In this document: one piece after another, positions 45,385 to 61,087 of the stretch
How positions within the stretch are numbered: position 1 is the first letter of the stretch
How the letters are laid out: each line of letters begins with the position of its first letter
Assembly (NCBI RefSeq): GCF_020386975.1
Contig: NZ_JABFNK010000005.1
Coordinates: forward strand, 868,001 to 932,000
Origin: Thermococcus bergensis
GTDB lineage: Archaea > Methanobacteriota_B > Thermococci > Thermococcales > Thermococcaceae
Reading direction: 5' to 3'
Length of the DNA stretch: 64,000 nucleotides
Position numbers and translations under genes: made by a program
Notes under the pieces: model-generated
Databases searched by the model: none
What the model saw: only the letters and a program-made list of their open reading frames with translations
Told to the model about the DNA's origin: nothing

Positions 45385-46253
45385 GGGCGTGTTTATAGTA
45401 ACCTTTATTAGGGTTTTTGCTGAATTCTTTCGGGTGGTTGTCGTGATCCCCAGATGGGATCACAGACTCAAAGACCCTGAAAGCGTGGCATTCGCAATTC
45501 TTGACGTTTTAGCAGACTTCGAATCAGAAGGAAAGCTGAAGAACCTGCCAAAATCCAAAAAATTTCCAGTAAAAACAATACTGGCAATACTCCTCTTTAA
45601 ACAATACTACAACCTACCTCTCAGAGACGCCCAGCACTACGGCAGAAAATTCTTCGGAGCAAACATTCACTACTCAACCCTCCACAACTGGGAGAAAAAG
45701 CTGAACCTCGAAGAACTGACAAACCACCTCCTGAAAAAACTCCAGAAATTACCCTACGCCAGCACTCAAGCAGACTCAACCATTATTACAAATAAAAAAA
45801 GGGCAGGATAGAAGTTCAGGCAATAACGAGAATCCTGCCGGGTTTACTGTATCCGGTTGCTGTGAAGATCACAACTTCTGAGAACGAGCTGATTGAACTC
45901 CTGCCGGGGGGTTCTGGGAATTTTTATGCTGATGGGGCTTATGATTCAAAGAAAGTTCTGAACACTGTGGTGGAAAAGGGTTATCGGCCGATTGTTAAGA
46001 AAACTAAGAACGCTCCAGGTGGTTTTGGTAGTAAGAAGAGAGACAGAGTGTTTTCTGAAGAAGAGTACAGGCATAGGAATCCTCATGAGGGGTTCTGGGG
46101 TGCGTTTACAACGTGGTTTGGCAGTAGGATCCCCTGTTTTCTGAAAAAGACTACTGTAACCCGAATCCTGCTTGGGGTAATGTGTTATGGTCTGAAAATC
46201 CTCCTCAGAGTCAAATACTGTTTAAATAACAGGGGGTGAAACTAAACACGCCC
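45385..46253 (+). mobile_element. IS4-like insertion sequence, copy 3
   Basis: An 869-bp copy with 11-bp terminal repeats, flanked by the 10-bp direct repeat CGCAAAGCGA (45375-45384 and 46254-46263). It separates the psmB promoter from the serK gene. It is nearly identical to copy 4, suggesting recent movement. Confidence 0.95.
45389..46239 (+). CDS. IS4-like DDE transposase, copy 3 (two frames, -1 shift)
   Basis: orfA (45389-45811) ends ...[10 protein letters not shown]; the -1 frame continues [20 protein letters not shown] and ends at 46239. The shift site is A7 (45794-45800). The fused product would be about 283 residues with D in QADST, D in YADGAYD and E in YRHRNPHE. Confidence 0.85.
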
Positions 46254-46357
46254 CGCAAAGCGACATGAGTTGCTCCCTTTCAGATGGGCAGCTGAAAGAA
46301 AAGCTTTTTATCCTATGAATTGTTTTACAACAATGTAACCCTAGGAGGTATGATAAA

Positions 46358-47231: not shown

Positions 47232-47897
47232 ATGATAAAGGCATTAATATTTGACGTTGATGAAACTCTTGTCTATTATGAAGGCTATGATGGGCTGGAA
47301 TGGTTCGAAAAATGGGGAAAGAAAGAAATAAAAAAGCTTGGGATTACCCTTGAGTTTGAAACCTACAAAAAGATGGTAAAGGGAGAACTACCGCGAAGCT
47401 GGGTTGAGAGGCTTGGAGTTGATCATGTAGAATTCTGGAAAGCGATAGATAAAGCAAAGCTCGAGTACAGAAAATGGGCCGCAGAGAGAGGACTAATAAA
47501 AGCCTTTCCCGACGTTGATGTTTTAAAGGATTTCAAACAAATGGGATTAAAAATGGCAGCTGTTAGCAATGCTTCTCAGGAGTGTACGGAGTTTGTGCTG
47601 GAGCTTTTTGATTTGAAGAAATACTTTGACATTATCCTTGGAAAGGACTACAGATATCTGGATGGTGCTAAACCGAATCCCTATCTCATCGAAAAAGCCC
47701 TTAAGGCACTTGGTGTCCTTCCAAGTGAAGCTTTGGTTGTGGGAGATTCTGCATCGGATATCTTGGCAGCTCACCGGGCTGGTGTTAAAGCCGTTCAAGT
47801 GATGAGGTTCGGGGAAATAGAGGGGGCAGATTATTACGTGAAAGATTTGAACGAGCTTGTGCAACTGGTGCGCTCGCTAGTAGGTAAGGATTTATAA
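47232..47897 (+). CDS. HAD-superfamily hydrolase
   Basis: A 221-residue HAD phosphatase-like protein: DVDETLVYY (motif I), AAVSNAS (motif II), K in GAKPNPYLI (motif III) and VVGDSASDI (motif IV). The substrate is unknown. GTGAGGGATAACC precedes the ATG. Its stop codon (47895-47897) lies inside the TATA box of the H/ACA RNA. Confidence 0.87.
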   Translation: MIKALIFDVDETLVYYEGYDGLEWFEKWGKKEIKKLGITLEFETYKKMVKGELPRSWVERLGVDHVEFWKAIDKAKLEYRKWAAERGLIKAFPDVDVLKDFKQMGLKMAAVSNASQECTEFVLELFDLKKYFDIILGKDYRYLDGAKPNPYLIEKALKALGVLPSEALVVGDSASDILAAHRAGVKAVQVMRFGEIEGADYYVKDLNELVQLVRSLVGKDL

Positions 47898-47898
47898 A
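47891..47898 (+). promoter_or_regulatory. TATA box of the H/ACA RNA
   Basis: TTTATAAA overlaps the stop codon of the HAD gene and is centred about 25 nt before the first paired base of the RNA (47919), the standard archaeal spacing. Confidence 0.75.
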
Positions 47899-47918
47899 TG
47901 AACTGCCTAACTTATAAT

Positions 47919-48137
47919 GCCCCTGCGCGAGGACCCACCCAATCAATGAAGGTGGGGGCGATGCGGGGGCAACAGCTCGGCCATAGCGAGGTCCCCACGG
48001 GAGGGCCTTCCGCGTTACGGAGCGCAATGACCGTGGGTAACCCTGGCCGAGTACACTCTTCTGGCCCGCCTGGGTTAAGCCGCTTGAGATTGCCTTACGG
48101 CTTCAATGAGAGCGGTCGTTACGGGCGGGCCACATTT
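47919..48137 (+). ncRNA. Three-hairpin H/ACA guide RNA
   Basis: A GC-rich island of about 219 nt that folds into three consecutive hairpins, each followed by ACA. Hairpin 1: GCCCCTGC (47919-47926) with GCGGGGGC (47963-47970), ACA at 47972-47974. Hairpin 2: CTCGGCCA (47976-47983) with TGGCCGAG (48044-48051), ACA at 48053-48055. Hairpin 3: GGCCCGCC (48063-48070) with GGCGGGCC (48124-48131), ACA at 48132-48134. Each has an internal loop between lower and upper stems (the pseudouridylation pocket), and hairpins 2 and 3 have a GA/GA kink-turn-like motif above it (CTTGAGATTG with CAATGAGAG). A T-rich stretch follows. Targets not assigned. Confidence 0.85.
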
Positions 48138-49204
48138 TCTTGGAAAATTTCTAATGGTCTGGATATGGAGATTAGTTCTTCTACAGCTAATGCTAGCTCT
48201 TCTGGGGTTTTAGGATAATATGTACCGATTTCATAGTTTCTTTTAAGACTAGTGGTAAGCAAATTTGCGGAGGACTCTATACTTGGCCCTTGATAATTTG
48301 CGGTAATTTTGGAATGCAAATTTTGATAATACCGGCACTCAACATCGAGGGGAGTGGTTTTTGATATTCTCTTTATCACATCTCTGTTCTTTTGGGTGTT
48401 CCTGACAACAAGAGTTACTTTAGATAAGTCTTCATTGATACTGCCTATAACCCTTATTAACTTCTCAACAGTACCGTTTATCCATGGAGAGACTATTACT
48501 GGCTCTTTCGCATCATAAAGAACATCAGCAATCCCAGCATAGATTGTGTAATCGCCAGGCATTGTTCGAATTATATCAGAAGACTCAACACGATCTCTAA
48601 CTACTTCCTTTCCCTCTTTTGTTAGTTTTACTTCACTACCTTTCTTGTCTATTAACCCTAAGTCCAAGGAGAGGGGTATAAAAAGAGAACTTACAACAAA
48701 TTTATTGTACGGTTTTGCAATGTTCCCCTTCTTAAGAATCCCCAATTGATAAAGTATCGATGTCCAGTGTTTCATCTCTCCTCCTAGTTCCGAAGATATA
48801 ACTCGCATACTTACTGAGCCTTTGTAATCAATGTATTTTAGAAAAACTATCAATGGATACCATTTTTTGAAAACCAATCTTAAAATATCCTCTCGATTTT
48901 CTCGATTGTTCTCTATGTTATTCAATAAATTCTGACCATACGAGCTTAGTTTATATCCCCTTCCGGAACTTTTGACCAAAATCCCCAGATGCCATAATAG
49001 TCTAGCGAAGTAATAACCTTCCCTTCCAGTCTTAGCAAATGGATGTTGGCTGTTTTTCTTAAAAAAATAGTCCATTTCACTAGTGCTCAAAACCTTCTTT
49101 GAGTCAATGAAACCAAGAAGTTTCAAAAAGGTGTCTACATCGAACCATGCGATTCCATAGCTGGAAAAATAAACTTTAGCTGCATAATAAAGTCTACCTA
49201 TCAT
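48119..49204 (-). CDS. Winged-helix / PLD-type (HKD) protein of unknown function
   Basis: A 361-residue protein. The first 230 residues contain one or more winged-helix-like regions (KTGREGYYFARLLWHLGILV; WTSILYQLGILKKGN; KLTKEGKEVVRDRV). The last 130 residues look like a single phospholipase D-type domain: VIVSPWIN, a LHSKI (HxK) motif, then SSANLLTTSLKRNYEIG (N...E). Proteins of this kind cut or bind nucleic acid, and many are linked to mobile or defence loci, but no partner gene is present here. It is AT-richer than its neighbours. Its stop lies inside hairpin 3 of the convergent H/ACA RNA. Confidence 0.7.
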   Translation of the reverse strand: MIGRLYYAAKVYFSSYGIAWFDVDTFLKLLGFIDSKKVLSTSEMDYFFKKNSQHPFAKTGREGYYFARLLWHLGILVKSSGRGYKLSSYGQNLLNNIENNRENREDILRLVFKKWYPLIVFLKYIDYKGSVSMRVISSELGGEMKHWTSILYQLGILKKGNIAKPYNKFVVSSLFIPLSLDLGLIDKKGSEVKLTKEGKEVVRDRVESSDIIRTMPGDYTIYAGIADVLYDAKEPVIVSPWINGTVEKLIRVIGSINEDLSKVTLVVRNTQKNRDVIKRISKTTPLDVECRYYQNLHSKITANYQGPSIESSANLLTTSLKRNYEIGTYYPKTPEELALAVEELISISRPLEIFQENVARP

Positions 49205-49255
49205 AAGGCATCATCAGAGAATTAGGAGCTTTTCACAGAAATCTTTTTTGGTGGT

Positions 49256-49333
49256 TGGTGGGCCCGCGGGGATTCGAACCCCGGACCTCCACCGTGTCAG
49301 GGTGGCGTCATAACCAGTCTAGACCACGGGCCC
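49256..49333 (-). tRNA. tRNA-Val (GAC)
   Basis: The minus strand gives a cloverleaf with acceptor GGGCCCG/CGGGCCC, anticodon stem CCACC/GGTGG and loop CTGACAC (anticodon GAC), TTCGAAT in the T loop, and encoded CCA (49256-49258). It lies 13 nt downstream of tRNA-Ala in the same direction, so both are likely one transcript. Confidence 0.95.
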
Positions 49334-49346
49334 GCCCAAAGTGTTG

Positions 49347-49424
<78 letters not shown>

Positions 49425-49476
49425 ACGCCCAATCCAATAAGGGTTGAAGGCTATTTATAAATCTTTCGGTTAGAAG

Positions 49477-50345
49477 GGGCGTGTTTAGTTTCACCCCCTG
49501 TTATTTAAACAGTATTTGACTCTGAGGAGGATTTTCAGACCATAACACATTACCCCAAGCAGGATTCGGGTTACAGTAGTCTTTTTCAGAAAACAGGGGA
49601 TCCTACTGCCAAACCACGTTGTAAACGCACCCCAGAACCCCTCATGAGGATTCCTATGCCTGTACTCTTCTTCAGAAAACACTCTGTCTCTCTTCTTACT
49701 ACCAAAACCACCTGGAGCGTTCTTAGTTTTCTTAACAATCGGCCGATAACCCTTTTCCACCACAGTGTTCAGAACTTTCTTTGAATCATAAGCCCCATCA
49801 GCATAAAAATTCCCAGAACCCCCCGGCAGGAGTTCAATCAGCTCGTTCTCAGAAGTTGTGATCTTCACAGCAACCGGATACAGTAAACCCGGCAGGATTC
49901 TCGTTATTGCCTGAACTTCTATCCTGCCCTTTTTTTATTTGTAATAATGGTTGAGTCTGCTTGAGTGCTGGCGTAGGGTAATTTCTGGAGTTTTTTCAGG
50001 AGGTGGTTTGTCAGTTCTTCGAGGTTCAGCTTTTTCTCCCAGTTGTGGAGGGTTGAGTAGTGAATGTTTGCTCCGAAGAATTTTCTGCCGTAGTGCTGGG
50101 CGTCTCTGAGAGGTAGGTTGTAGTATTGTTTAAAGAGGAGTATTGCCAGTATTGTTTTTACTGGAAATTTTTTGGATTTTGGCAGGTTCTTCAGCTTTCC
50201 TTCTGATTCGAAGTCTGCTAAAACGTCAAGAATTGCGAATGCCACGCTTTCAGGGTCTTTGAGTCTGTGATCCCATCTGGGGATCACGACAACCACCCGA
50301 AAGAATTCAGCAAAAACCCTAATAAAGGTTACTATAAACACGCCC
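49477..50345 (-). mobile_element. IS4-like insertion sequence, copy 4
   Basis: An 869-bp copy with 11-bp terminal repeats and the 10-bp duplication CGGTTAGAAG (49467-49476 and 50346-50355). It sits just upstream of the tRNA-Ala/Val promoter, in a small frame that reads across the site when the IS is removed (see the remnant at 50356). Orientation opposite to copy 3. Confidence 0.95.
49491..50341 (-). CDS. IS4-like DDE transposase, copy 4 (two frames, -1 shift)
   Basis: orfA (49919-50341) and orfB (to 49491) meet at A7 (complement of 49930-49936). The sequence is nearly identical to copy 3. The open frame of orfA can be traced upstream to 50452 outside the element, but this is the interrupted host frame, not a transposase start. 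Confidence 0.85.
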
Positions 50346-50507: not shown

Positions 50508-51728
50508 TCACTTGCTCATTGGATACAGTGAATCTCTGTAAATAGCTGCAATGGTCTCTCTAGTTGCGTCAATTGGGGCAAGTGAGAGCAACAGGCCAAG
50601 GCCTGGGGTTGTCATGGCTAATTCGGTGAGCTTGTCGATGTCGTCCTCTGTGAATCCAACATCAGTGAGCTTCTGAGTGATTCCGATGCTGAAAAGCCAC
50701 TCCTCGACTTTCCTTGCGACGTACTCAGCTTCGCCTGGAACTCCCTTGGCATCTGGAACGAGTGGTCTATAGACCTCAGCGAGCACTCTAGCCGTGGCGG
50801 GGTATATGTGCTTAATGACCGCGGGCAAGAGCATCGCGAGACCGAGTCCGTGTGGGAGGTCTGGCTTCACGGCACTGAGTGGGTGTTCGAGGGCGTGGGT
50901 GAAGTGGAGCATACCGTTGTCGAAGGATATACCCGCTATTGCGGAGGCATATAGTAGGTAGTACCTGGCTGAGAGGTTGTTGGGGTCAGCTATGGCCTTC
51001 GGGAGGTAGTCGAATATCAGCCTAGCAGTCTCTTGGGCGAGGAGTATGGAGTAGGGATTTGTGACCTTGGTGGTCGCGGCCTCGGTTATGTGGTTGAGCG
51101 CGTCAATGGTCACATAACGGGTCTGGTCGGCTGGGAGCTTGGTTGTGAGAGCCGGGTCGTCGATTGCGTAGAGTGGGTAGATGCAGTCAAAAGCTATTGC
51201 TGGCTTGTACTCTTTCTCTGGAATTGATGCCACTGCAAATCTGTCTACCTCGGTTCCCGTTCCGTGGGTGGTGTTAATTGCTATGATGGGCTTGGCCTTC
51301 ATTGCAAAGAACTTTCCTTCATAGAGCTCTCTCGCGTTCTTGTCTGTGTACTCCAGCAGAATGGCGACGCTCTTGGCTGTGTCGATTGGGCTTCCACCAC
51401 CGATACCAATAACAGCCTGAGCTCCGAACTCCTTGCCTAGCTCTGTGGCCTCGTCAACCATATCAACGGTCGGGTTTGGGCCGACCTTGTCGTAGTGAAC
51501 ATATTCGATACCGTATTCCTCAAGGGCGGGCTTGACGACATCCCAAGCACCGCACTTCTTGTATCCGCTCTTTCCGGTGACAAGGATGACCCTAGTTATG
51601 CCACGGTTTTCCTTAAGGTCTTTGGCTATGTCATAGAACTTGTTAATGGCGCCAACGCCAAAATAGTCTATGGTTCTGCAGCGAAGTTCAAACACCTGGT
51701 TTATGGGGATTTGAGACTCCCACAACAT
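50508..51728 (-). CDS. adh: Iron-containing alcohol dehydrogenase
   Basis: A 406-residue group III (iron-type) alcohol dehydrogenase, the same length as the Thermococcus ES-1/T. hydrothermalis enzymes. NAD(P)-binding GIGGGSPIDTAK is at about residue 100, the metal-binding Asp/His residues are in DALNHITEA, FTHALEHPLSAV and LPHGLGLAM. It reduces aldehydes formed in fermentation, using NADPH. The ATG at 51728 follows GGAGGGATGTACA. A symmetrical AT box (AATTATATATAATT, about 51742-51755) upstream probably holds the TATA element. Confidence 0.93.
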   Translation of the reverse strand: MLWESQIPINQVFELRCRTIDYFGVGAINKFYDIAKDLKENRGITRVILVTGKSGYKKCGAWDVVKPALEEYGIEYVHYDKVGPNPTVDMVDEATELGKEFGAQAVIGIGGGSPIDTAKSVAILLEYTDKNARELYEGKFFAMKAKPIIAINTTHGTGTEVDRFAVASIPEKEYKPAIAFDCIYPLYAIDDPALTTKLPADQTRYVTIDALNHITEAATTKVTNPYSILLAQETARLIFDYLPKAIADPNNLSARYYLLYASAIAGISFDNGMLHFTHALEHPLSAVKPDLPHGLGLAMLLPAVIKHIYPATARVLAEVYRPLVPDAKGVPGEAEYVARKVEEWLFSIGITQKLTDVGFTEDDIDKLTELAMTTPGLGLLLSLAPIDATRETIAAIYRDSLYPMSK

Positions 51729-51908
51729 TGTACATCCCTCCAAATTATATATAATTTGTGCGGAATATAAGCATTTCTTGAACATAACATGTACAACCAA
51801 TGGTTTTTGACACACTCCTGAATAAAGAAGCACAAAGAAGCTTTTGTATTTGTCAACGAAAACTACAAACTCCTAAATAGGGGTCAATGGGCTAAAAAAT
51901 TAAAAGGA

Positions 51909-57758: not shown

Positions 57759-57970
57759 TCTTCACCACCATTCTATTTGAGATTCTTTGGTGTTTTTAAC
57801 CGTTTCCGAGAAATCGCACATGTGAGGGAATATCCATAAATACTCTGCGGTATAGATAATAGTAGTGGCCATAATTCAGAACTTTTTGGAATACCTATGA
57901 AAGTAAATCTTCATATTTACGCAAAAGTTTTTATACTTCATATTTGTAAAAACGTGTAGAGGTGATTAGA

Positions 57971-60900
57971 ATGGAAGAGATAACAGAGGGAGTACCGAGT
58001 GGGGAGAGAGAATTTGGTGAGCTTACTAAAAGGGTTCGCGATCTCATCGAATACCCCGAAATAAGTGAGGAGGAATTTCACGAGCTCCTTACAAAAGCCA
58101 GCAAAGGTTACGGTGGACCTCTCCCCCATAGAACCTGGTCTCTCTGCCCCGAGACTAGAAAAGTTGTCCCCGCTGTGGTCTGGGAAAAGGATGGGAAAGT
58201 GTGGATAACAAAGAAATGTCCTGAAGGTATGATAACTGATGTTTATTATGAAGATGCTGAGATGTACAAGCGTTTTGAGGAGTGGAGGTATGACTTTAAG
58301 ATAAAGAGCTACAACGTTGAGAACACCGGTGTAAACTGTCCCTTTGATTGTGGTCTCTGTCCAAGGCACCGCTCTCATACTAACTTGCTCAACATAGTTC
58401 TGACAAATAGATGTAATTTGAGCTGCTGGTACTGCTTCCCAGGATATGAAGAGGCACTATTCAAGTTTGGTGGTGAAGTTAAGCTTGCAAAATTCGAAGA
58501 GATTGCAAAGATGTTTTCCTTTGAACATACAGTGCAGATAGGGGGATTTAGGGGAGAGTATTCAACTCCCGAGAACCTATATGTTTTAACTTACAATAAT
58601 GGAAAGGCCGAATGGACAAGAGTCACAAAATTCCTCAGAAGAAAACACTCGGGAGAAATAATGGTCATAAAGACGAGAACTGGAAGGGAAATAAGAACGA
58701 CGCCAGAGCATAAGTTCTTTATATATGAAAACGGAAAGATAGTAAAAAAGAGGGCTGATGAACTTAACGTCGAAGATGAGCTAATACTACTATGGAATCT
58801 TGAAACTGATGAGAGGGAAGAATTTGAAATAAACCTCTTAGAAGCTTTTAGATCATTACCAGAAGAAGAAAAGGAAAAAATATATGTCAGAGGGATATCA
58901 ACGCTGGATCTTTTGCCGCTCAAAGAGGAATACGGAGATATAATTTATCACTGGAAGAAGAGTGATTCTATGCCTCTTTCGGCATTCTATAAATTGGGGA
59001 TAACTGAAGGAGAGTTTAGACTCGGCAGGGATGCCACAAGTAATGAGCTTCCTTCTAAACTCAGAATAACCCCTGAATTTGCAAAGTTGATAGGATATTT
59101 TGTCTCGGATGGTAATTATAGCAACAAGGATTTGAGAATAACTGTTGGGCATAAGGATGTCGAGAAAGAAATAATTTCAATACTCAACTTCCTCAACCTT
59201 CCGTACAGCATATTGGAATGGGAAGGAAAAGCTAAGCAGATAGTTGTAGGTAGTAGGTTAATGCGGCTTGTCTTCAAGTATGTACTGGGAATCCCTGAAG
59301 GAGCACCCAATAAGAGGTTACCCAAGAATTTCCTGAACTTCCCGGTTGAAGCAAAGATAGCTCTACTTAGTGGACTCTTTAATGGAGACGGATATGTAGT
59401 AAGAGGAGACAAAGTTCTGCATATGGGATATGCAAGTGTTTCTAAAGGGCTTATTAGGGACATGCTATACTTGCTGGCCTCCTTAGGGATATTCGCGAGG
59501 GTTTACATGGTTCCAAAAGAGAAAATGAATGGGGCAAACCACGACCTCTACAAGATATATATAGCGGGAACCGACCTTGTAAAACTTGTCGAAATGCTTG
59601 ATCTGAGAGAAGGGCATCGTAAAAAGTTAAATAACATAGGAGACAGAAAGCCCTCCAAAGTCAAGAAGGTTTCAGACTTTTACATTGACACAATTAGCGA
59701 GATAAAGGTTGAAAACTACGAGGGATACGTATATGACCTTGAGGTTGAGAATGAGAGCCATTCATTTGTAGCATCTGATGGAATTCTAGTAAGCAATTGT
59801 TTCTTCTATGCCAAGGAGGGTCAGCCAATCTATGAGCCCACTCTCGAGCAGATACGCATAATGCTCCGCAACGCAAAGAAGGAAGAGCCCATTGGTGCCA
59901 ATGCCGTCCAGTTCACCGGAGGAGAGCCAACACTAAGAGATGACATTGTAGAGATCGTAAAGATTGCAAAGGAAGAAGGCTACGACCACGTCCAGCTTAA
60001 CACGGACGGCATAAGGTTTGCCTTTGAGCCTGAGCTTGTAAAGAAGATTAGAGAAGCAGGTGTCAATACCTTATACTTGAGCTACGATGGAATGACCCCA
60101 AAAACAAACTGGAAGAACCACTGGGAGATTCCATTGATTTTCGAAAACGTAAGAAAAGCCGGCGGGCCGGGAATTGTTCTCGTGCCCACAACCATAAGGA
60201 ACGTAAACGACCACGAACTCGGTGCCATAATCAACTTCGGTCTCAACCACCTTGACATAGTTAGAGGAGTCAACTTCCAGCCGATTTCCCTCGTGGGGAG
60301 AGTTCCAAAGAAGGAAAGACAGCGCTTTAGGATTACCATTCCCGGAGCAATAAAGAAGATAGAGGAACAGACAAACGGGGCAATAGCAAAAGAAGACTGG
60401 TATCCAATACCAACTGCTGGACACATTGCGAGGTTCTTCGAGGCTTTTGCAGGTAAGAGATACTACATGACATCACACTTCGGCTGTGGGGCTGCAACTT
60501 ATGTCTTCCTTGATGAGGACAGGGTAATCCCAATTTCGAGATTCCTTGATGTGGAAGGCTTTGTGGAGTTCCTCGAAAGCAAGGTTGAGGGGATAGAAAA
60601 ATGGAAGACCCTTGGAAAGCTTCAGAAGCTCAAGCTTGGTGCGGAGATATTCCTCAAGTTTAAGAGCTTTTACGATGAAAAGTATGCGCCAAAGAGCTTT
60701 GATGTGCTAAAGATAATGAGAGAAGCATTCGCTCATGGAACTTACGAGGCACTTGGTCAGTTCCACTACAAGACGCTCTTCCTTGGAATGATGCACTTCA
60801 TGGACGAGTACAACTACGATGTTGAGAGAGTTGAGCGCTGTGTAATCCACTACGCCCTGCCCGATGGAAGAATTGTGCCCTTCTGTACCTTCAATGTAAT

Positions 60901-61087
60901 ACCAGAGCTCTATAGGGACAAGGTTCAAGCTCAGTTCAGCTACAGCTGGGAAGAATGGAAAGCCCTCCACCCAGACTGGGAGTACAGTAAAGACAAGTAC
61001 GTAAGAACCAGGGAGTTCATTGAAAAGATGAAGCAAAGCGAGCTGTATAAGAAGACCTACATCGACATAAAGAACTACTTCGGGTGA
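57971..61087 (+). CDS. Radical SAM protein, tetraether lipid synthase (Tes)-like, with intein
   Basis: A 1038-residue precursor; without the intein (58433-59797) 583 residues remain. The spliced protein has an N-terminal metal-site-like region (WSLCPETRKVV ... KKCPEG), CPFDCGLCPRH, the radical SAM motif CNLSCWYC (CX3CX2C) and QFTGGEPTLRDD (SAM-binding), and C-terminal cysteines (HFGCGAA; FCTFNVIPE). This arrangement resembles MJ0619/Tes, which joins two archaeol tails into GDGT membrane-spanning lipid, so that is the likely role; another radical SAM function is possible. The ATG at 57971 follows GAGGTGATTAGA. It overlaps the next small gene. Confidence 0.8.
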   Translation: MEEITEGVPSGEREFGELTKRVRDLIEYPEISEEEFHELLTKASKGYGGPLPHRTWSLCPETRKVVPAVVWEKDGKVWITKKCPEGMITDVYYEDAEMYKRFEEWRYDFKIKSYNVENTGVNCPFDCGLCPRHRSHTNLLNIVLTNRCNLSCWYCFPGYEEALFKFGGEVKLAKFEEIAKMFSFEHTVQIGGFRGEYSTPENLYVLTYNNGKAEWTRVTKFLRRKHSGEIMVIKTRTGREIRTTPEHKFFIYENGKIVKKRADELNVEDELILLWNLETDEREEFEINLLEAFRSLPEEEKEKIYVRGISTLDLLPLKEEYGDIIYHWKKSDSMPLSAFYKLGITEGEFRLGRDATSNELPSKLRITPEFAKLIGYFVSDGNYSNKDLRITVGHKDVEKEIISILNFLNLPYSILEWEGKAKQIVVGSRLMRLVFKYVLGIPEGAPNKRLPKNFLNFPVEAKIALLSGLFNGDGYVVRGDKVLHMGYASVSKGLIRDMLYLLASLGIFARVYMVPKEKMNGANHDLYKIYIAGTDLVKLVEMLDLREGHRKKLNNIGDRKPSKVKKVSDFYIDTISEIKVENYEGYVYDLEVENESHSFVASDGILVSNCFFYAKEGQPIYEPTLEQIRIMLRNAKKEEPIGANAVQFTGGEPTLRDDIVEIVKIAKEEGYDHVQLNTDGIRFAFEPELVKKIREAGVNTLYLSYDGMTPKTNWKNHWEIPLIFENVRKAGGPGIVLVPTTIRNVNDHELGAIINFGLNHLDIVRGVNFQPISLVGRVPKKERQRFRITIPGAIKKIEEQTNGAIAKEDWYPIPTAGHIARFFEAFAGKRYYMTSHFGCGAATYVFLDEDRVIPISRFLDVEGFVEFLESKVEGIEKWKTLGKLQKLKLGAEIFLKFKSFYDEKYAPKSFDVLKIMREAFAHGTYEALGQFHYKTLFLGMMHFMDEYNYDVERVERCVIHYALPDGRIVPFCTFNVIPELYRDKVQAQFSYSWEEWKALHPDWEYSKDKYVRTREFIEKMKQSELYKKTYIDIKNYFG
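58433..59797 (+). other. Intein in the radical SAM CX3CX2C motif (455 residues)
   Basis: The extein would read CNLSCWY followed by CFFYAKEG. The inserted part begins CFPGYEEALFKFGGEVKLAK and ends GYVYDLEVENESHSF, then VASDGILVSN; Cys is the +1 residue. Splice blocks are RTTPEHKFF (block B) and the VYDLEVE...ILVSN (F/G). DOD endonuclease motifs are LIGYFVSDGN and LLSGLFNGDGY. The +1 Cys becomes the third ligand of the [4Fe-4S] cluster after splicing, so the enzyme can assemble its cluster only after splicing. Confidence 0.92.

Follow-up and report, generated by a model that had tools for sequence, protein, structure and literature searches.

A winged-helix/PLD gene at an RNA-gene locus of Thermococcus that may encode a stand-alone nuclease

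Introduction

PLD nucleases serve in many defence systems, including DISARM, Dpd and pAgo (PMC9142583, PMC12458937, PMC11442185). In DISARM and Dpd, the PLD proteins DrmC and DpdK belong to multi-gene systems, with DrmA and DrmB or with the Dpd cluster; DrmC mostly carries a 4-helix bundle where the present protein has winged helices (PMC12458937). AgaP, the PLD-family nuclease of pAgo-PLD (APAP) immunity in haloarchaea, is encoded in an operon with Argonaute (PMC11442185). The type IIS enzyme BfiI/BmrI, part of a restriction-modification system, joins a single PLD domain to a B3-like DNA-binding domain, and such single-motif enzymes (BfiI, Nuc) form one active site from two subunits, without metal and through a phospho-histidine intermediate (PMC4081073). 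Fusions of a winged helix to a PLD domain have also been proposed as type IV restriction enzymes; the bacterial proteins Aba4572I and CbaI, which combine both domains in one chain and do not need a partner, are proposed to be 6mA-dependent (PMC11037411).

Here we describe a gene in a 64,000-nucleotide stretch of the Thermococcus bergensis genome (the window) that can be compared with each of these systems; its nearest known counterparts are BfiI, the proposed PLD-wH type IV enzymes and DrmC/DpdK. Its predicted catalytic residues H297/K299/N314/E325 correspond to H105/K107/N125/E136 of BfiI, with an N-to-E distance of 11 in both (PMC4081073). In BfiI the PLD domain comes first, whereas here the winged helices do. 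Like Aba4572I and CbaI, the protein carries winged helix and PLD domain in one chain, the winged-helix part being read from weak profile matches and secondary structure. Those fusions are named with the PLD domain before the winged helix, and two of them have HxDx4K and HxEx4K (PMC11037411), whereas the protein described here begins with tandem winged helices and has HxK. It may work as BfiI does and resembles the winged-helix/PLD fusions, and is distinguished by its domain order, by having its winged helices in tandem and by a range that appears to be archaeal.

The defence PLD models that score best against the archaeal family are those of DrmC and DpdK, and AgaP is a precedent for a PLD-family nuclease in archaeal immunity. 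We nevertheless exclude membership of DISARM, Dpd and APAP, because the defining features examined are missing. Neither a DrmA helicase nor DrmB (DUF1998/MZB) was found at the locus, and the only MZB protein of the genome is a single 906-aa frame on another contig. The NCBIfam DpdK equivalog model, with a cut-off of 100 bits, gave 18.1 bits. There is no Argonaute operon here; the genome has no Piwi match, and one of the 13 genomes of the genus has one.

Results

The gene and its neighbours

The gene is an open reading frame of 361 codons on the minus strand (48119..49204), opposite a plus strand full of stops, and has orthologues of 56-93% identity. The ATG at 49204 is shared with the closest relative only; the remaining orthologues probably start at a GTG or TTG a few codons upstream of that position. 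An earlier note, made from the sequence of the window, had remarked that the frame is AT-richer than its surroundings. Its G+C content is indeed 36.8%, the lowest of any 1086-bp stretch in the window, which as a whole has 44.4%. Because orthologues from five other genomes are likewise AT-rich relative to their own loci, we consider the low G+C content to be old and a property of the gene.

The frame lies between RNA genes, as the note had also observed. The HgcG H/ACA RNA gene (47865..48139, plus strand) is convergent, lies downstream and overlaps the last 21 bp of the frame. On the other side, tRNA-Val (49256-49333, minus strand) lies 51 bp upstream on the same strand, with tRNA-Ala (49347-49424, minus strand) beyond it. 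SerK (free serine kinase) and an iron-dependent alcohol dehydrogenase are ordinary neighbours, and a HAD hydrolase and a DNA ligase, identified by sequence reading, are also near. The alcohol dehydrogenase gene (50508-51833), between an insertion sequence (IS) and the ligase gene, has no counterpart there in syntenic relatives. Farther along the window (57962-61087), a radical SAM protein is split by an intein with a LAGLIDADG domain (about residues 181-612), and its relatives in four genomes (G006, G007, G010 and G008) align across the intein site without an intein.

The reported IS next to the gene is present, and an identical copy of it flanks the gene on the opposite side. Both are 870 bp long; copy 1 (45385..46254, plus strand) has its own 9-bp target duplication, GCAAAGCGA, and copy 2 (49476..50345, minus strand) is inverted and has its own, CGGTTAGAA. 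Both are missing from relatives that have the winged-helix/PLD gene. Identical copies with separate, intact duplications that are absent from relatives do not form a composite transposon and are uninformative on the origin of the gene: they are independent, recent, later insertions unrelated to it. The earlier note had read the IS as a sign of mobility, a reading that these data do not bear out, and an IS carrying the gene is ruled out. The RNA-gene flanks, taken in the same sense, also fail as such a sign, as the gene is fixed at the HgcG-tRNA locus across the genus. Recent arrival by tRNA integration is ruled out as well: four other genomes of the genus have the gene at this site (in one of them it is divided between contigs), and three further genomes have remnants of it.

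Distribution of the family

We surveyed 94 genomes of the taxonomic family, including 13 of the genus of the window. Eight of the 94 gave matches, and the gene is intact or near intact in six. It lies between HgcG and tRNA-Val in G000, G006, G007 and G010; in G011 its ends are on separate contigs, one by tRNA-Val and one by HgcG. At the same site, all that remains is a broken N-terminal remnant in G008 and G004 and a C-terminal remnant in G009, and the gene was not found in the complete, single-contig genomes G002 and G012. Three further genomes (G001, G003, G005) are too incomplete to score for presence or absence. The gene is thus lost or decayed in five of the nine near-complete genomes of the genus. 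Since intact, decayed and absent states occur at one site, the genus probably had the gene from early on, inherited it and lost it several times, and the gene is probably dispensable. This patchy distribution in the order agrees with the idea of an uncharacterised accessory gene and speaks against universal presence with a housekeeping pattern, which the note had named as grounds for abandoning that idea.

G017, from another genus of the taxonomic family, carries a homologue elsewhere, beside a DNA polymerase gene. That polymerase frame (L014, 4887-9470) is longer than usual at 1527 aa and probably holds an intein. A profile built from these sequences recovered full-length or near full-length relatives in genomes whose inferred phylum is Thermoproteota: G369, G250, and four members of one genus (G310, G149, G204 and, found later, G603). 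Two further matches there are incomplete: G385 has a fragment and G599 a broken copy. A named genome collection gave a single match, a Thermococci MAG corresponding to G011, and no homologue was found in the viral contigs, phages and plasmids searched. The gene thus belongs to an archaeal protein family without a name, present in Thermococcales and scattered Thermoproteota, with winged helices followed by one PLD domain. We left out of this family PLD-only matches in other archaeal phyla that have other N-termini (L028-L034, L058-L060). Those at L028-L034 represent a second archaeal family, present in another phylum in 7 of 23 genomes. Its proteins are about 420 aa long, have an N-terminus that looks secreted and a hydrophobic segment, and end in a PLD domain (HSK...SSANLT...E).

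Domains and catalytic residues

The secondary structure of an AlphaFold model places a winged helix at about residues 23-99 (48908..49138, minus strand), where relatives match CARF-assoc_HTH and DUF7226, one family member exceeding the DUF7226 cut-off across the region. This block has helices at 23-35, 41-51 and 62-72 and strands at 76-78 and 83-86; its pLDDT of 53-80 is the best of the model, and W71-H72, within WHLG, is family-wide. A second winged-helix region, with inferred boundaries, extends over about residues 116-205 (48590..48859, minus strand) and is HTH_45/Sso10a-like at its end (HTH_45, residues 173-204, E 0.005; Sso10a 1r7j, E 0.012). Overall, weak profile matches to HTH_45, CARF-associated HTH and Sso10a mark the N-terminal 205 residues as winged helix.

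Profile matches assign about residues 206-348 (48161..48589, minus strand) to a PLD-like catalytic domain. The window protein alone matches PLD profiles weakly (PLDc_2, E 0.15; DrmC, E 1.2e-4), and the signal is stronger in the family. PLDc_2 reaches 5.6e-7, over the curated cut-off in one member and under it in the others, and DrmC models match 11 of 12 members (best 5.9e-9; NCBIfam DrmC 2.4e-9), which places the family in the PLD superfamily by profile. The best PLD match in the PDB, a weak one, is the PLD3 exonuclease. AlphaFold models of the window protein and of homologue L018 have low confidence (pLDDT 45 and 49); their secondary structure fits a winged helix followed by alternating helix and strand, and a PDB fold search with them gave no match at E<=0.001.

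In an alignment of 12 archaeal homologues (24-93% identity), invariance is confined to P240, L296, H297, S312, A313 and N314, and K299, E325 and G327 come close to it. At about 25-30% identity the family keeps almost only the PLD core, L-H-x-K, S-A-N and E-x-G. The predicted catalytic HxK, H297-S-K299 (48308..48316, minus strand), has H in 12/12 members and K in 11/12, with N in G250. S312-A313-N314 (48263..48271, minus strand) is invariant in all 12, and E325 of NYEIG (48230..48232, minus strand) is E in all 11 members that reach it. Relative to the canonical HxK(x)4D(x)6GSxN, the protein keeps HxK, SxN and the H-to-N spacing of 17, and a downstream E is present; in the window protein the D is Y and the G is S, and in most members these positions hold Y, C, S or another residue and S or T, respectively. 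The winged-helix parts and single HxK/N...E domain proposed in the earlier note are both backed by family profiles, and the lack of a PLD fold that would have told against its proposal is not what the sequence indicates. The conservation of the PLD catalytic core in an otherwise divergent family makes it probable that the protein is an active nuclease rather than a TrmB-like regulator.

Selection and allele exchange

For the whole gene we estimate a dN/dS of 0.12-0.16; the PLD part has 0.06-0.12, and the ligase and SerK genes have about 0.01-0.04. The gene is thus under purifying selection and functional, evolving faster than its neighbours; its dN relative to DNA ligase ranges from about 1.2-fold (G006) to about 8-fold (G010). 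Between G000 and G006, dS is 0.22 for the gene and 0.71-0.91 for three neighbours, and nucleotide identity to G006 is unusually high over HgcG, the frame and the tRNAs (47823-49426). The uneven dN and the low dS are what one would expect if an accessory gene were exchanged. The low dS, together with the rise in identity over this tract, suggests from these few genomes that alleles may be exchanged between lineages, anchored in the conserved RNA genes, and recently so for the G006 tract.

Genomic context

As the note had anticipated, there is no visible partner: the loci read across genera differ, and none of their genes is conserved beside the winged-helix/PLD gene. We noticed no methyltransferase, as would accompany a BfiI-like type II system, among the immediate neighbours (SerK, HAD, HgcG, tRNAs, IS, Fe-ADH, ligase). 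No known defence system adjoins the gene at the window locus, in G017 or in the Thermoproteales relatives. Two single loci provide what defence-like context there is. They give weak support. A CRISPR-like array with 12 repeats (L045, 11326-12083) is found about 1.2 kb away from the G250 homologue, which has the HxN motif, and the G369 homologue is surrounded by PIN/MazE-type and HEPN/nucleotidyltransferase pairs of the toxin-antitoxin type.

Discussion

We propose, with a probability of about one half, that the gene encodes a stand-alone, dimeric, metal-independent winged-helix/PLD DNA nuclease whose most likely use is restriction-like defence. The parts of this proposal differ in strength. 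The conserved residues argue strongly for nuclease chemistry; defence against foreign DNA is the leading role on circumstantial grounds, and we infer the fold, dimerisation, DNA as substrate and defence as purpose. Catalytic residues of the BfiI type, joined to domains of a DNA-binding type, make the BfiI/Nuc scheme the best reading here. The N-terminal winged helices would aim the PLD phosphodiesterase at DNA by recognising a particular sequence, structure or modification mark. The single HxK...N...E motifs of two subunits would combine into one metal-independent active site, in which one histidine would attack the phosphodiester to give a phospho-histidine intermediate, as in Nuc and BfiI. 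Likely targets would be viruses, plasmids or transformed DNA, in a restriction-like manner. Foreign DNA is suggested as the target because the gene is patchy and its alleles appear to be exchanged, because DISARM, Dpd and pAgo employ PLD nucleases, and because PLD-wH fusions have been proposed as type IV enzymes. Several points tell against a nuclease in defence. No known defence system adjoins the gene at the loci read, no methyltransferase was noticed beside it, and the viral contigs, phages and plasmids searched hold no homologue. Both structure models are poor, the fold search gave no match at its threshold, and the defence-like context comes from two single loci. In addition, the aspartate of the HKD motif is not kept, and the motif of one homologue is HxN.

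That HxN homologue (G250) and the winged-helix DNA-binding domains would suit a transcription regulator of PLD fold, with winged helices on a promoter and a PLD-like domain that binds a ligand, as in TrmB, whose effector domains have PLD-like folds. We regard a regulator as unlikely, however: conservation in the family is highest at H, K, S-A-N and E, residues that a catalytically dead ligand-binding domain would have no need to retain; no TrmB Pfam family matches (E limits of 1 for the window protein and 0.1 for the family); and no target operon is conserved nearby at loci that differ between genera. A literature search on TrmB, PLD and Pyrococcus returned nothing. A similarly low probability attaches to a house nuclease for DNA repair, recombination or RNA processing. 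Purifying selection, the fixed chromosomal locus and the adjoining tRNA and HgcG genes in the genus are what such an enzyme might be expected to show, but the repeated loss within the genus and absence from most of the taxonomic family are not, and the G017 and Thermoproteota copies lie away from tRNA or HgcG genes (the tRNA scan covered loci outside Thermoproteota). Repeated decay could instead mark a nuclease toxin or the remnant of a selfish element that gives the host no benefit and is either maintained through addiction or on its way to being lost. AgaP, the PLD protein of haloarchaea, is toxic when its Argonaute is missing (PMC11442185). This last explanation seems improbable to us, as no antitoxin gene is conserved adjacent in the loci read and purifying selection is concentrated in the catalytic domain.

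A more specific version of the defence nuclease that we favour can be put forward tentatively. The protein could be a single-gene innate immune nuclease of archaea, in which tandem winged helices sense foreign DNA by a modification, a sequence or an end and switch on the metal-independent PLD site. It would represent a family of Thermococcales and Thermoproteota that is unnamed in the defence catalogues used.

Defence beyond CRISPR is poorly mapped in hyperthermophilic archaea. If our proposal is true, a nuclease that needs neither a second gene nor a metal could be tested with little effort and might find use as a heat-stable enzyme. Sister genomes of the genus, in which the gene is intact, decayed or absent at one locus, provide a natural comparison that is ready to use.
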